Shown here one piece after another: positions 14,787-42,621 of a stretch of 64,000 nucleotides of DNA. The position numbers and the translations under genes were made by a program. The stretch lies in NCBI RefSeq assembly GCF_013705725.1, contig NZ_CP055481.1:4588001-4652000 (forward strand). The letters run 5' to 3'. This DNA comes from Klebsiella sp. RHBSTW-00484 (GTDB taxonomy: Bacteria > Pseudomonadota > Gammaproteobacteria > Enterobacterales > Enterobacteriaceae). Within the stretch, counting starts at the first letter, position 1. Each line of letters begins with the position of its first letter. The notes beneath the pieces are model-generated. The model did no database searches, was not told where the DNA came from, and saw only the letters and a program-made list of their open reading frames with translations.

Positions 14787-14849
14787 TAGTAAATACCCCG
14801 GTGGCGCTGACCGGGCTACGGGTTCACCGCCGTCTGCGAGCCGGTAGCC

Positions 14850-14975
14850 CGGACAGATGCGCAGCATCACCTCCGGGAAATGTGCCGGAGCGGATGCATC
14901 GCCGCTGCTTCTTCCCGGCTCGCGCTGCGCTTAGCCGGGCTACTGATTCACCGCCGTCTGCGGGCCTGTAGCCCG
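14850..14975. repeat. 126-bp REP/BIME unit left of the insertion sequence
   Basis: Runs from CGGACAGATGCGC to CTGTAGCCCG and matches the segment 16364-16489 at 124 of 126 positions. A partial further unit lies just before it (14815-14849). The insertion sequence sits at the junction of two tandem units. Confidence 0.92.
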
Positions 14976-14980
14976 ATGTG

Positions 14981-14993
14981 ATGGACACCTCCC
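14981..14993. repeat. Left subterminal inverted repeat of the insertion sequence
   Basis: ATGGACACCTCCC, the exact reverse complement of the right copy at 16348-16360. A further inverted copy of ten bases (GGAGGTGTCC) lies at 15048-15057 at the transposase ribosome site. Confidence 0.93.
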
Positions 14994-15060
14994 ACCTTAC
15001 GGCATCAGAACGTGCCAGACTGGAAGTGTTACCTGCAGTCCACAGGAGGAGGTGTCCACC

Positions 15061-16083
15061 ATGAATATTAAACGTATCGGTCTTGACCTGGCAAAAAATG
15101 TCTTTCAGATCCATGCTGTGGATCACCATGAACATGTCGTCGTACGGAAATCTCTCCGCCGCGCCCACATGCACGCTTATTTCTCTCAGCTGGCTCCCTG
15201 CACCATCGGGATTGAAGCCTGCGCATCATCCCACTACTGGTCCCGCGAACTCACCCGCATGGGGCATACCGTGCGCATTATTCCCCCGAAATTCGTCAAG
15301 CCTTACCTCAAAGGCAACAAGAATGATGCCAACGATGCCGAAGCCATCTGTGAAGCCATCAGCCGCCCCGCCATGCGCTTCGTCGCGGTTAAGACAGAGC
15401 GCCAGCAGACTCTTCAGGCTGAGCATCGCGTGCGGGCCAGAGTGATAAAAAGCCGCACGGCGCTGTGCAACGAGATACGGGGCTTTCTGGGCGAATTCGG
15501 CGTGGTGCTGCCGGTCGGCATCAGCCAGTTGCGTAAGGCGCTGCCGGAGATACTGTCACAGCAGGAGCAGTGGGATGACCGGTTTATGCGCCTGCTGTGC
15601 GAGCTGGCCGAAGAGCTGCGGATGCTGGATGACCGGGTGGCGGGGCATGACCGGCGGCTCGCAGAGGCGGCGCGGGAAGATATCTGCATCCAGCGGCTGA
15701 TGAAAATAGAAGGTATCGGCGTGATAACCGCCAGCGCGATGGTGGCGTTGTTGGGTGACGCGACGCAGTTTAAGAACGGTCGGGAGATGGCGGCTTATGT
15801 GGGGCTGGTTCCCCGGCAGCACTCAAGCGGCGGTAAGCAGCAGCTGGGGCATATCAGCAAGCGGGGTGACAGCTACCTGCGTACGCTGGTCATCCACGGG
15901 GCACGGTCAGTTCTGAAGACATGTGCAGGCAAAGAAGACCGGCGGAGCCAGTGGCTGCAGTCGGTGGCGGAAAGACGGAACCGGAATATCGCGACGGTGG
16001 CGCTGGCGAACAAGAATGTGCGGATAGCGTGGGCGGTGATGAGTCGCGGAGAAGATTACCATGGTTCACGGGTCGCCGGTTAA
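15061..16083 (+). CDS. IS110-family DEDD recombinase (transposase)
   Basis: Recombinase that excises and inserts the element guided by a non-coding RNA. The start at 15061 (MNIKRIGLDLAKNVFQIH) follows AGGAGGAGG and gives 340 residues. The N-terminal RuvC-like DEDD domain shows D9, E52 and D89/D92 (NKNDANDAEAI). A coiled-coil middle section follows, then the C-terminal Tnp_20 domain (IEGIGVITASAMVALLGD) with the candidate catalytic Ser in RQHSSGGKQ (residue 255 or 256). No frameshift or stop, so it may be active. Confidence 0.95.
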   Translation: MNIKRIGLDLAKNVFQIHAVDHHEHVVVRKSLRRAHMHAYFSQLAPCTIGIEACASSHYWSRELTRMGHTVRIIPPKFVKPYLKGNKNDANDAEAICEAISRPAMRFVAVKTERQQTLQAEHRVRARVIKSRTALCNEIRGFLGEFGVVLPVGISQLRKALPEILSQQEQWDDRFMRLLCELAEELRMLDDRVAGHDRRLAEAAREDICIQRLMKIEGIGVITASAMVALLGDATQFKNGREMAAYVGLVPRQHSSGGKQQLGHISKRGDSYLRTLVIHGARSVLKTCAGKEDRRSQWLQSVAERRNRNIATVALANKNVRIAWAVMSRGEDYHGSRVAG

Positions 16084-16164
16084 CCGACGCCCCGTGAGCC
16101 ATGCAGTAAAAAGAGCAGTAACCCTGTCGTGAGATTGCGAAGCGATTTAGCGTGATGAGTAACC

Positions 16165-16314
16165 GGTAAGACCAGCACCTGAGAAATCCGGCCTGTCCGA
16201 AGGCTCCCTGCGAAGCAAAGCCGATAGCCCGAAAGGAAGCAGGTGAGCAGAACACATCATGGCCCGGGTACGACGGTACCGAAAGAGAGGCCGGATATAC
16301 GAACGCAACTTACC
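16165..16314 (+). ncRNA. Predicted bridge RNA of the insertion sequence (minimal extent)
   Basis: Non-coding right end of the element. The outer stem GGTAAG/CTTACC (16165-16170 and 16309-16314) encloses two loops. Loop 1 is closed by CACCTG/CAGGTG (16176-16181, 16240-16245) and has guide CTGTCCG (16193-16199), a hairpin GGCT...AGCC with TGC-GAA-GCA, then guide TAGCCCG (16225-16231); these match the right flank (as reverse complement) and the left flank, both with the CG core. Loop 2 has CACATC (16253-16258) and ATATACG (16295-16301), matching the element's own left end (reverse complement) and right end, around a hairpin GGTAC-GACG-GTACC. This is the target-loop/donor-loop design of IS110 bridge RNAs. 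True 5' and 3' ends are unknown. Confidence 0.82.
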
Positions 16315-16347
16315 CTGGTGACTCACACAAAAAATAGCTTGCATCAC

Positions 16348-16360
16348 GGGAGGTGTCCAT
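16348..16360. repeat. Right subterminal inverted repeat of the insertion sequence
   Basis: GGGAGGTGTCCAT, the exact reverse complement of the left copy at 14981-14993, 3 bp inside the right end. Confidence 0.93.
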
Positions 16361-16363
16361 ATA

Positions 16364-16517
16364 CGGACAGATGCGCAGCATCGCCTCCGGGAAATGTGCC
16401 GGAGCGGATGCATCGCCGCTGCTTCTTCCCGGCTCGCGCTGCGCTTAGCCGGGCTACTGGTTCACCGCCGTCTGCGGGCCTGTAGCCCGGGTAAGGCGTT
16501 TACGCCGCAACCCGGGG
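16364..16517. repeat. 126-bp REP/BIME unit right of the insertion sequence, with REP tail
   Basis: 16364-16489 repeats 14850-14975 with two mismatches. It is followed by a REP half, CCCGGGTAAGGCGTTTACGC and CGCAACCCGGG, up to the fetB stop. Together with the right end of the insertion sequence it fills the 440-bp gap between the transposase gene and fetB. Confidence 0.9.
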
Positions 16518-26743: not shown

Positions 26744-27538
26744 ATGGGCCTGTTAAACCGAATAAAAATGCTGTGGCAAGCCGCTGTCGGCTCGTCTTAT
26801 TCCTGGCCCGCGCTGGATGTCACTCTTCCCGGCGAACGCTATTTGCACCTGGTCGGCAGTATTCATATGGGCACCCGCGATATGTCGCCGCCTCCAGCAC
26901 GACTGCTGAAGCTGATTCGCCAGGCCGATGCGCTGATTGTTGAAGCGGATATTACCGGCAGCGAAACGCCGTTCAGCAACCTTCCCTCTTATCCACCGCT
27001 GGCGGAACGCCTGAGCGCATCCCAGCTTGCTGAACTGGAAGAGCGAGCGGGAGAGATGGGCCTGTCTATCGCGCTATTTGATAGCCAGCCGCTGTGGCAA
27101 GTAGCAATGGTGTTGCAGGCCACCCAGGCGCAAAAGTTGGGGCTAAGAGCGGATTATGGCATTGATTACCAACTGCTAATGGCGGCCCGCGAGAGCAATA
27201 TCCGGGTGATGGAACTGGAGGGGGCCGACAGCCAAATCGCCCTGTTGCGCAACCTTCCAGATGGCGGAATGGCTCTGCTGGAGGATACGCTGACCCACTG
27301 GCGCACTAACGCCCGTCTGTTACAGGTGATGATCGGCTGGTGGCTGGAGCAGCCGCCGTCAAAAGGCGCAACCGTGCTGCCGACGACCTTTAGCCAGTCG
27401 CTATATGATGTGCTGATGCATCAGCGCAACCTGGCCTGGCGCGAAACGCTGCTGGCGCTGCCGCCGGGGCGTTACATAGTAGCCGTAGGGGCGCTGCATT
27501 TGTACGGAGAAGGGAATCTGCCGGATATGTTGACGTAA
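26744..27538 (+). CDS. ybaP: TraB/GumN-family protein YbaP
   Basis: A 264-residue protein of the TraB (GumN, Tiki) family, possibly a metal-dependent protease-like enzyme; function in bacteria is not known. The start at 26744 (MGLLNRIKMLWQAAVGSSYS) gives the E. coli length. Family motifs are LVGSIHMGTRDM near the start and VAVGALHLYGEGNLPDML near the end (GxxH repeats). It lies 51 bp after copA and its stop codon touches the chiX terminator on the other strand. Confidence 0.92.
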   Translation: MGLLNRIKMLWQAAVGSSYSWPALDVTLPGERYLHLVGSIHMGTRDMSPPPARLLKLIRQADALIVEADITGSETPFSNLPSYPPLAERLSASQLAELEERAGEMGLSIALFDSQPLWQVAMVLQATQAQKLGLRADYGIDYQLLMAARESNIRVMELEGADSQIALLRNLPDGGMALLEDTLTHWRTNARLLQVMIGWWLEQPPSKGATVLPTTFSQSLYDVLMHQRNLAWRETLLALPPGRYIVAVGALHLYGEGNLPDMLT

Positions 27539-27616
27539 AAAAATGGCCAATATTTCTATTGGCCCGTCAAAGAGGAATTTCATCATTATTATTATCCCGA
27601 GATTTGCACCTCGGAT
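27537..27616 (-). ncRNA. chiX: Small RNA ChiX (MicM/SroB)
   Basis: Hfq-dependent sRNA that silences the chitoporin gene chiP until chitosugar transcripts titrate it. Read on the minus strand it has a 5' hairpin CCGAG/CTCGG, a single-stranded seed with TAATAATAATGATG, the conserved GAAATTCCTCTTTGACGGG, and the terminator GGCCAATAGAAATATTGGCC followed by a T run (27543-27537). A promoter is visible: -35 TTGGCA (27652-27647), 18 bp, -10 GACAAT. The position between ybaP and ybaK matches E. coli. Confidence 0.93.
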
Positions 27617-27670
27617 CGCTTGATTGTCGCTCAAAGTGACCATCACTGCCAACACTATTGCGCAAGATGA

Positions 27671-40716: not shown

Positions 40717-42621
40717 TCAAATGGGGCGAATACTTTCTTCATCCAGGTCCGCATCAAAGAACCGGCGCAGCGTCTGGATGTTGTTATCCGCAATAATCGC
40801 TTCACGCGCCTGCGTGAGCTTTTCTTCATAAATTGCCTGCCGCCACTCAAGCGGCGTGCGCATCGCGGGATTATCATCTTCCACGATGGTCAATTCAACC
40901 GGCGTACCGTACAAAATACCCAGCGCTTCCGCCAGCTTTTGCTGCGCGCCTGCCGAGTTCAGATGACGCTGGCTCGGACGCAGATGCAGGCAAACGCGGT
41001 TGCCGTCCTGCTCTTTCCACGCATTTAGTGCCACCTGCTCCACCAGTTTTGGCACCGCGAGCTGGTTAACTTCCGCCGCCCAGCTATCGCGCTCGACCGC
41101 TTCGACTGCCAGCTTCGCCGCCAGTTCCGGGGTTTTTTCGTGCTCCAGTGCTTTTTTCAGCGCTTTAGGTGTTGCAACTTCTTCTTTTACCGTTTCAACA
41201 ACCATCGTCGATTTCCAACGGTAAGCTTCTTTTTTCGCCGGAGCTTGCTCCAGAGCGGCAGCTGCCGGACGCGCCTGTACGCGCTCGGTAATCGAACTCA
41301 GTCGTTCCAGCGCAGCGTTATTCACCGGCCGCGCGCGGGAAGCGGCTGCCGGTTCACTCTTTTTTGGGCTGGGTGCTCCCTGGCTACGCTGAAGCTGACT
41401 GCGGGCTGCCAGCACCTGGCTGGTCGTCTGCGGCAGATTCTGCGGTGGCTGCTGAGCGGATACCGGGGCAGCCTGCTGTACAGGTGCGACCGGGATAGTC
41501 TGCGCCGGAGGGGCTTCCGGTTCCGGCAACGGCATGCGCGGATGGAATGCCAGCGCCCGCAGAAGCGTCATTTCAACACCCATGCGTCTGTCCGGCGCGT
41601 ACGGTAGCTCTTTGCGGCCAATCAACAACGTCTGATAGTAAAGCTGTACGTCGGTTGGCGGCACGGTTCGTGCCAGCTCGCGCATCCGCAGCTCTACGGC
41701 AGCCATATCCGCGCCGAGCGCCGACGGCGAGAGCTGAACCATTGCAATACGGTGCAGCAAACTTTGCATCTCGACCAACAGGGCTTCCCACTCCACGCCG
41801 CGAGCAGCCGCCTCATTGACGCCTGCCATCACGCGTTCGCCGTCGGCAGCCACTAGTGCTTCAATCAACGAGAGCGCCTGATCGTCGTCAAGAGTGCCAA
41901 GCATGGTGCTGACAGATTCTGCGGTCAGGTGGCCATCGCCGCTGGCAATAGCCTGATCCGTCAGGCTCAACGCATCGCGCAGGCTTCCATCAGCCGCGCG
42001 CGCGAGCAGTTGCAGCGCGCGCGGTTCAAAAGCAATCTGCTCTTCACCGAGAATATGCTCTAACTGATGACGGATCTGTTCAACATCCAGCGCCTTGAGA
42101 TGAAACTGCAGGCAGCGGGAAAGAATAGTGACCGGCAGCTTTTGCGGATCGGTCGTCGCTAGCAGGAATTTAACGTGCGCAGGTGGCTCCTCCAGCGTTT
42201 TTAGCAACGCGTTGAAGCTGTGGCGCGACAGCATGTGGACTTCATCGATCAGATAGACCTTGAAGCGACCACGGGCCGGTGCGTACTGGACGTTATCCAG
42301 CAAATCGCGGGTATCTTCGACTTTGGTGCGTGAGGCGGCATCGATCTCGATCAGATCGACAAAACGCCCTTGTTCTATTTCTCGGCAGTTATCGCAGACG
42401 CCACAAGGCGTGGCGGTAACGCCAGTTTCGCAGTTTAACCCTTTCGCCAATAAGCGAGCGATGGAGGTTTTACCCACCCCGCGGGTACCGGAAAAGAGAT
42501 ATGCGTGATGAATGCGCCCTAACGATAAGCCGTTCGCCAGTGCGGTCAGCACATGTTCCTGGCCGACGACGTCAGCAAAGGTTTGTGGGCGCCATTTACG
42601 GGCTAAGACCTGATAACTCAT
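40717..42621 (-). CDS. dnaX: DNA polymerase III subunits tau and gamma
   Basis: Clamp-loader ATPase. The full frame encodes tau, 634 residues: Walker A GTRGVGKTSIARLL, zinc site CGVCDNCREIEQ, Walker B VYLIDEVHMLS, sensor 1 and SRC (LSRCLQFHLKAL). Domains IV-V that bind DnaB and alpha follow a Pro/Gln/Ala-rich linker (residues 370-450). Programmed -1 frameshifting at 41359-41365 gives gamma of 422 residues. First gene of dnaX-ybaB-recR. Confidence 0.98.
   Translation of the reverse strand: MSYQVLARKWRPQTFADVVGQEHVLTALANGLSLGRIHHAYLFSGTRGVGKTSIARLLAKGLNCETGVTATPCGVCDNCREIEQGRFVDLIEIDAASRTKVEDTRDLLDNVQYAPARGRFKVYLIDEVHMLSRHSFNALLKTLEEPPAHVKFLLATTDPQKLPVTILSRCLQFHLKALDVEQIRHQLEHILGEEQIAFEPRALQLLARAADGSLRDALSLTDQAIASGDGHLTAESVSTMLGTLDDDQALSLIEALVAADGERVMAGVNEAAARGVEWEALLVEMQSLLHRIAMVQLSPSALGADMAAVELRMRELARTVPPTDVQLYYQTLLIGRKELPYAPDRRMGVEMTLLRALAFHPRMPLPEPEAPPAQTIPVAPVQQAAPVSAQQPPQNLPQTTSQVLAARSQLQRSQGAPSPKKSEPAAASRARPVNNAALERLSSITERVQARPAAAALEQAPAKKEAYRWKSTMVVETVKEEVATPKALKKALEHEKTPELAAKLAVEAVERDSWAAEVNQLAVPKLVEQVALNAWKEQDGNRVCLHLRPSQRHLNSAGAQQKLAEALGILYGTPVELTIVEDDNPAMRTPLEWRQAIYEEKLTQAREAIIADNNIQTLRRFFDADLDEESIRPI
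41354..41365 (-). other. dnaX programmed -1 frameshift site
   Basis: Slippery heptamer AAAAAAG (41365-41359 on the minus strand), preceded by a Shine-Dalgarno-like AGGGAG about 10 nt upstream and followed by an ACCGGC...GCCGGT hairpin. After slipping, the ribosome reads GAG then TGA (41356-41354), so gamma gains one residue and stops. Confidence 0.93.

Follow-up and report, generated by a model that had tools for sequence, protein, structure and literature searches.

The right end of an insertion sequence in Klebsiella sp. RHBSTW-00484 contains several short segments that match either the DNA flanking the element or the element's own ends, which raises the question of whether this non-coding region encodes a guide RNA and what such an RNA would pair with. 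The window analyzed here is a 64,000 nt stretch of contig NZ_CP055481.1 (positions 4,588,001 to 4,652,000), and coordinates below are positions within it. The best explanation, to which we assign a probability of about 95%, is that the right end of an IS1111-group element codes for a bridge RNA (seekRNA), which pairs with a REP target and with the element's own ends. The ends, the target, an uninterrupted site, covariation in the fold, and coevolution of the guides with target and ends are all directly observed.

The insertion sequence, its ends and its recombinase

The main features of the element are:

14974–16363, + strand, IS1111-group insertion sequence (IS110 family), with ends set by the 7 nt/3 nt convention and shared by 27 copies in the genome
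14974–14980, + strand, left-end extension CGATGTG, with which the 5′ donor guide would pair; coevolution at D+6 and D+7
14981–14993, + strand, left sub-terminal inverted repeat ATGGACACCTCCC, 13 bp
15061–16083, + strand, tnp, DEDD recombinase of 340 aa (PF01548 and PF02371), an intact frame with a possible GTG start at 15052
16348–16360, + strand, right sub-terminal inverted repeat GGGAGGTGTCCAT
16361–16363, + strand, right-end extension ATA, 3 nt outside the 13 bp repeat

Outside the 13 bp sub-terminal repeats there are 7 nt at the left end and 3 nt at the right end, the arrangement of IS1111 elements, in which the right-end extension is 3 nt. A 7 bp left-end extension is stated to be required in IS1111 elements (PMC11187229). 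The IS1111 convention assigns the CG to the left end (14974–16363); treating the CG as part of the target instead gives an element of 14976–16363.

The tnp product matches PF01548 and PF02371 above cut-off, giving it the DEDD (RuvC-like) N-terminal and Transposase_20 C-terminal domains of the IS110 family, and it scores 345.7 bits (cut-off 140) against NF033542, 'IS110 family RNA-guided transposase'. The G--P----S(T)G motif given for the IS110 C-terminal domain (PMC11187229) is present as GLVPRQHSSG, and the solved structures closest by sequence are ISCro4 (9t56) and IS621 (8wt6). In the near-identical copies there are 267 nt between tnp and the right repeat versus 87 nt upstream of the gene, and the location of the longer non-coding region downstream of tnp agrees with the IS1111 assignment made in the original prediction. 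Searches of E. coli and of plasmids gave no match to a near-identical element.

Genomic copies and the target site

There are 27 full-length copies in the genome, consisting of the window copy, 25 others at 98.8–99.9% identity, and one (L027) at 77.6% identity. The target features at the window locus are:

14845–14856, + strand, intact target copy TAGCCCGGACAG in a neighboring REP unit to the left of the element
14969–14975, + strand, left half of the target, TAGCC followed by the core CG, within a REP repeat and the same in all 26 near-identical copies
16364–16370, + strand, right target half, core CG plus GACAG, with CGGACAG in 21 of the 26 near-identical copies

All 26 near-identical copies have identical guides and the same orientation relative to the target, and a G precedes TAGCCCG in 25 of them. 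The five right flanks that depart from CGGACAG are each found once (CGGGCAG, CGGTATA, CGGTCAG, CGGGCAA and CGAACAG), and as read from these 26 natural insertions the element is strict for the left half of its target and looser for the right half. The surroundings of 25 copies are REP-like as judged by eye from the flanks. The L005 copy (G000:C1:5515020-5516407) is outside REP sequence and has a complete left target half with a right half, CGGTATA, that matches in CGG only. L005 adjoins a reading frame with an ImpA_N domain (PF06812, type VI secretion) that is apparently broken by the insertion. The expectation that guides and flanks would agree over all copies is thus borne out for the guides and for TAGCCCG without exception and for CGGACAG in 21 of 26, and fails in L005 for all of the right half beyond CGG.

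The window insertion sits within a tandem array of composite REP units (14845–14856 and 16364–16490). In a related genome (L187) the same locus has the uninterrupted site GGTAGCCCGGACAGATGCGCAGCATCGCC amid tandem REP units, in which the two flanks are joined with one CG such that the target TAGCCCGGACAG is unbroken; with this single CG in the empty site there is no duplication beyond the assigned ends, as in IS1111 elements. Another genome (L188) has a similar REP array at this locus with variant bases at the target position, and the remaining 17 of the 19 other genus genomes compared have a different intergenic sequence. Intact TAGCCCGGACAG sites number 111 in the element's own genome (the reversed control pattern has no matches), and there are 105 intact GTAGCCCGGNNANGG sites (one control match), those listed all ending in AAGG. 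Twenty-one of the 26 copies are in the TAGCCCGGACAG class, one is in the GTAGCCCGGNNANGG class and four are in neither (Fisher p 2.5e-5, with the two classes counted using slightly different patterns).

Architecture of the proposed right-end RNA

The features of the proposed RNA, in order, are:

16162–16319, + strand, bridge RNA or long seekRNA region, with ends predicted from an outer helix (16162–16170 with 16309–16319)
16176–16181, + strand, 5′ strand CACCUG of the target-loop closing stem, an 8-pair stem in the alignment
16193–16199, + strand, target guide 1, CUGUCCG, which can pair with the top strand over the core and the bases to its right
16202–16222, + strand, hairpin between the target guides, in which 16202–16205 pair with 16219–16222; three of the pairs are helix 2, with 87% of cells paired
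16225–16231, + strand, target guide 2, UAGCCCG, which can pair with the bottom strand over the core and the bases to its left
16240–16245, + strand, 3′ strand CAGGUG of the target-loop closing stem, an 8-pair stem in the alignment
16253–16258, + strand, donor guide 1, CACAUC, which can pair with the left end on its top strand
16261–16292, + strand, donor-loop stem (16261–16264 with 16289–16292) and apical hairpin (16267–16271 with 16276–16280)
16295–16301, + strand, donor guide 2, AUAUACG, which can pair with the right end on its bottom strand

The four matches on which the original prediction was built are all present where it placed them: CTGTCCG (16193–16199) is the reverse complement of CGGACAG (16364–16370), TAGCCCG (16225–16231) is identical to 14969–14975, CACATC (16253–16258) is the reverse complement of GATGTG (14975–14980), and ATATACG (16295–16301) is identical to 16359–16365. 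The loop-closing segments CACCTG (16176–16181) and CAGGTG (16240–16245) were likewise found, and three pairs of the hairpin proposed between the target guides make up helix 2 of the structure counted in the alignment.

RNAalifold applied to 36 aligned relatives (of 49 references, with 13 omitted by hand, mostly more divergent) recovered the target-loop closing stem and the donor-loop stem unprompted. The closing stem has two-sided changes at all eight pairs; the donor-loop stem (helix 4) is paired in 100% of cells and has two-sided changes in two of its four pairs, and the columns of the donor apical hairpin pair in 21–32 of the 36 sequences in their best register. Seventeen pairs were counted, these being the RNAalifold pairs after removal of a short 5′ hairpin and of pairing between guides, with the hairpin between the target guides added by hand. 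For this structure, which derives from the same 36-sequence alignment, 94.1% of cells are paired and the covariation score is 0.701, compared with 0.172 in shuffles (0 of 500) and 0.09–0.13 on sliding the structure by one to three columns. A plain count gives 12 pairs with two-sided changes, which does not exceed the shuffles (mean 11.4; 236 of 500). The outer helix scores 188 against a shuffled mean of 166 and a maximum of 178 in 2000, which is moderate and suggestive support.

The minimum-energy fold of the single sequence differs from the two-loop shape (−50.8 kcal/mol versus −46.9 kcal/mol with the consensus pairs enforced) and contains a long helix joining the guide 1 region to the donor region. 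We rejected it as a working fold because all 11 pairs of this helix can form in the element's own type and only 3–9 of the 11 in the other 35 aligned sequences. The two-loop shape derives from the alignment of relatives, and the fold that had been predicted stands as a conserved, covarying structure in 36 relatives and does not stand as the minimum-energy fold of this one sequence. At the gathering threshold, Rfam has no family match within 14974–16363; the only two Rfam matches in the window are a DnaX frameshifting element (41320–41384) and an sroB RNA (27537–27618).

The guides vary with targets and ends

The joint target-guide score of the window copy is 14 (7+7), which is reached by one of 5000 dinucleotide shuffles of the non-coding region when either guide order is allowed. 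In L076, a near-identical copy whose right flank extends the match to 9+7 (score 16), none of 5000 shuffles reaches the score.

Relatives were drawn, with overlaps, from the genus (20 genomes), family (295), order (394) and class (369), together with GTDB contigs (24 loci). From 185 loci, 116 elements had ends assigned by a sub-terminal repeat; 58 were dropped (partial gene, contig edge or no repeat) and duplicate sites were merged. After one more was dropped for an N, 56 non-redundant elements of 115, including the window type, were kept by similarity of the non-coding region. The target guides of the 56 elements score 671 with their own targets, and permuted pairings have a mean of 447.6 (sd 23.8) and a maximum of 532 (0 of 20000). 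An element's own target outscores every other in 26 cases and is at least equal to the best in 35; in 21 another element's target scores higher, and one element (L041) has no joint target-guide match. With the guide order reversed as a control the score is 562, against a permuted maximum of 528, and six elements are strictly best. The guide complementary to the top strand lies 5′ in the higher-scoring order, which is the one originally predicted and the one published for IS1111, and is the reverse of that in the tested IS110 element (PMC11187229). The donor guides score 638 with their own ends (permuted mean 505.1, maximum 541, 0 of 20000), and the excess is seen for the left-end guide alone (292 versus a permuted maximum of 282) and for the right-end guide alone (347 versus 296).

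An open scan of RNA alignment columns against positions in the target and end DNA (44 elements of at least 43% identity; 10,098 tests) returned guide positions for all of its first 12 matches. For target guide 2, T−1 to T−5 match 16229 to 16225 (z 8.0–9.9); for donor guide 2, D−2 and D−3 match 16298 and 16297 (z 9.2 and 7.7) and D+1 matches 16300 (7.6); and for donor guide 1, D+6 matches 16254 in complement (z 7.6). The first core base matches 16230 and 16300 (z 7.1–7.4). Below the first 12 come D+7 with 16253 (z 5.6) and T+2 with 16231 (z 5.4). Eighteen pairs exceed a z of 5, of which 14 are at guide positions and four are elsewhere, two of these four being based on 1 and 4 matches of 44. Signals for target guide 1 are lower than those for the other three guides (T+6, T+4 and T+2 with 16194, 16196 and 16198; z 4.4, 3.8 and 4.2), and we suspect a register shift within the alignment. 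Its coevolution rests on the joint score, on a sister element in another genome described below, and on these weaker single-position signals.

Sister pairs were compared for target guide 2, the core and the donor guides, with target guide 1 excluded, using 21 of 22 disjoint pairs of at least 45% identity. For target guide 2 and the core, the RNA base is changed in 55 of 67 positions where the DNA is changed (48 matching on both sides) and in five of 80 where it is not. For the donor guides, the RNA is changed in 19 of 21 cases with a changed end (16 matching both ends) and in four of 126 without. Sites within one pair are not fully independent and the Fisher values for these counts are indicative; the result largely meets the objection that the guide-DNA signal could come from relatedness alone. 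Across the relatives, coevolution of guides with targets and with ends is strong, and agrees with the proposal that the guides pair with opposite strands of target and donor, the trait of a bridge RNA. The two outcomes named beforehand as counting against such an RNA were copies at unrelated targets with unchanged guides and lack of a conserved fold; neither has overturned the bridge RNA reading, which is supported.

The 2 nt core CG is valid for the window element. In the 56 elements, the first core base is common to the left end and the right flank in 48, and the second in 16. We do not claim a cross-loop 'handshake' signal at the second core base, which is mostly a constant G in the RNA.

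Retargeting between sister elements

For a 78%-identical relative, seven copies were located in a second genome from the genus (G014), and all of them carry the guide CTTATCCG. All seven follow GTAGCC, and they precede CGGATAAG (four copies), CGGGTAAG (two) or CGGACAAG (one). The left guide is the same as in the window element, and the counterpart of target guide 1 is CUUAUCCG. There are only three intact TAGCCCGGACAG sites in G014, compared with 111 in the window element's genome, and the sister element's guide reads CGGATAAG. Natural variation thus points to natural retargeting through one guide, and the same kind of one-guide retargeting has been reported for ISEc11 and ISXne4 (PMC11187229). 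The 78%-identical copy L027 (G000:C1:3811334-3812714) in the window element's own genome sits in CGGACAG with the guide CTGGCCG, while its relatives in G014 carry CTTATCCG. The L027 guide has a single mismatch to its own target, at T+4, which of the seven right-half positions varies most from copy to copy.

Comparison with known systems and alternative explanations

The IS1111 seekRNA elements ISEc11, ISPa11 and ISKpn4 (Siddiquee et al. 2024, PMC11187229) resemble the window element in having a DEDD recombinase of ~340 aa and a longer downstream non-coding region, sub-terminal inverted repeats with a 7 nt left extension, a top-strand guide located 5′ of the bottom-strand guide, and a circle-junction promoter; ISPa11 also has a REP target. 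The target sequence of the window element differs from those of all three, and donor guides, which we describe here, are absent from the parts of that paper considered here. The IS621 bridge RNA (Durrant et al. 2024, PMC11208160; Hiraizumi et al. 2024, PMC11208158) likewise has a target loop followed by a donor loop, two guides per loop that pair with opposite strands around a 2 nt core, and a hairpin between the guides. Unlike in IS621, in which the RNA is in the left end and the core is CT, the window element has its RNA in the right end, reversed guide order within the loops, a CG core, and long sub-terminal repeats. A 38.6%-identical element in the same genome (L028) has the same guide arrangement and is taken to be of the IS5075/IS4321 type (IS1111 group) because plasmid records matching at 38.6% are named IS5075. 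Its target is a different sequence from that of the window element, and its flank fits the IS5075/IS4321 target, the end of Tn21-like transposons. Among open-access papers, screened by title and opening of the abstract apart from those cited here, none was seen to treat this combination.

By analogy with the published family, the RNA would be transcribed from a circle junction, with RNA binding, a circle intermediate and recombination to follow. The tnp recombinase would bind the right-end RNA, whose target loop would pair to the two strands of the REP repeat (TAGCC-CG-GACAG) and whose donor loop would do likewise on the element ends where these abut (ATATA-CG-ATGTG). Strand exchange at the core would then give insertion in one orientation with no further duplication. 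The expected circle junction sequence is ATATACGATGTG.

It is doubtful, in our estimation, that only the target loop guides, with the recombinase reading the ends through the sub-terminal repeats and the donor guides being leftovers or having some other role. What speaks for this is that an 82 nt RNA of ISEc11 moved a mini-element at 42%, outperforming a 154 nt RNA at ~15% (PMC11187229), and that the target-loop part of the RNA described here (~16163–16248) is near 82 nt; to judge from length, this part and the whole RNA (~16162–16319) may correspond to the short and long forms of ISEc11. However, the donor guides track the ends across the 56 elements and are among the first 12 matches of the open scan, they change with the ends in the sister pairs and seldom otherwise, and the donor stem is fully paired with two-sided changes in half of its pairs. 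The donor guide coevolution indicates that the donor loop is of importance in nature, and its strength is the least ordinary feature of the system, given that an 82 nt RNA sufficed for another IS1111 element. We lean slightly towards the broader view that IS1111 RNAs are complete bridge RNAs with a donor loop selected to match their own ends, such that sufficiency of the 82 nt form would be a feature of the overexpression assay, and that sister elements also retarget by one-guide changes that follow the REP repertoire of the host.

A suggestion from before 2024, that the recombinase itself recognizes the REP hairpin, would make the RNA matches captured target-derived sequence. The REP-like setting of 25 of the 26 near-identical copies fits this, and REP targeting by several IS families has been described (Tobes and Pareja 2006, PMC1525189). 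Against it, the guides follow the targets across the element set, and the L005 copy outside REP sequence retains the left half and CGG only. Moreover, GTAG, the foot of a REP, is absent from the last 9 left-flank bases in 44 of the 56 elements, and we consider this suggestion very improbable. The guides are short (6–9 nt) and the region is GC-rich, and the matches could in principle be due to chance or be an artefact of GC-rich repeats; with one of 5000 shuffles reaching the score of the window copy, none reaching that of L076, and the permutation and sister-pair tests in relatives, we give this virtually no credence.

The bridge RNA reading makes the window element a further example of the mechanism described in 2024, and candidate RNA-guided recombinases thereby gain an IS1111 element with many copies and well-defined ends. 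Target tolerance can be read from the 26 natural insertions, and natural retargeting between sister elements can be seen within one genus. The coevolution also provides sequence evidence that IS1111 donor guides matter, a point on which two 2024 lines of work differ.

The circle junction and other features

A promoter and terminator scan found no sigma-70-like site on the + strand. A candidate box is located near the right end:

16339–16344, + strand, TTGCAT, a −35-like box that circle formation would place opposite TACGAT at the joined ends

The junction promoter of the window element is weak (7 of 12), the scorer reading CTTGCA with an 18 nt spacer. Joined ends would give a −35/−10 pair with at least 8 of 12 matches in 53 of the 56 elements (9–11 matches in 45), and in two of the 56 the scorer finds no such pair; in the unexcised control (right end plus right flank), seven of 56 reach 8 of 12 and none is higher. 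Where the second core base of a left end is A, circle formation would yield a complete TATAAT-like −10 box.

There is also a long stem-loop at the end of tnp:

16060–16103, + strand, stem-loop spanning the tnp stop codon, strong only in the element's close clade

Compared with 100 mononucleotide shuffles its stability has z values of −3.9 in L076, −7.3 in L027 and −8.3 in L054, and no comparably stable stem-loop was found at the stop codon in 15 checked relatives of at most 61% identity (z −2.4 to 1.1). It is retained with compensatory changes in the element's own type, L027 and L054, and could serve to keep the tnp mRNA and the guide RNA apart. The same genome also has, at ten listed places, another and distant transposase of IS110 type (26% identity, 338 aa open frame) (e.g. 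G000:C1 432233-432679).
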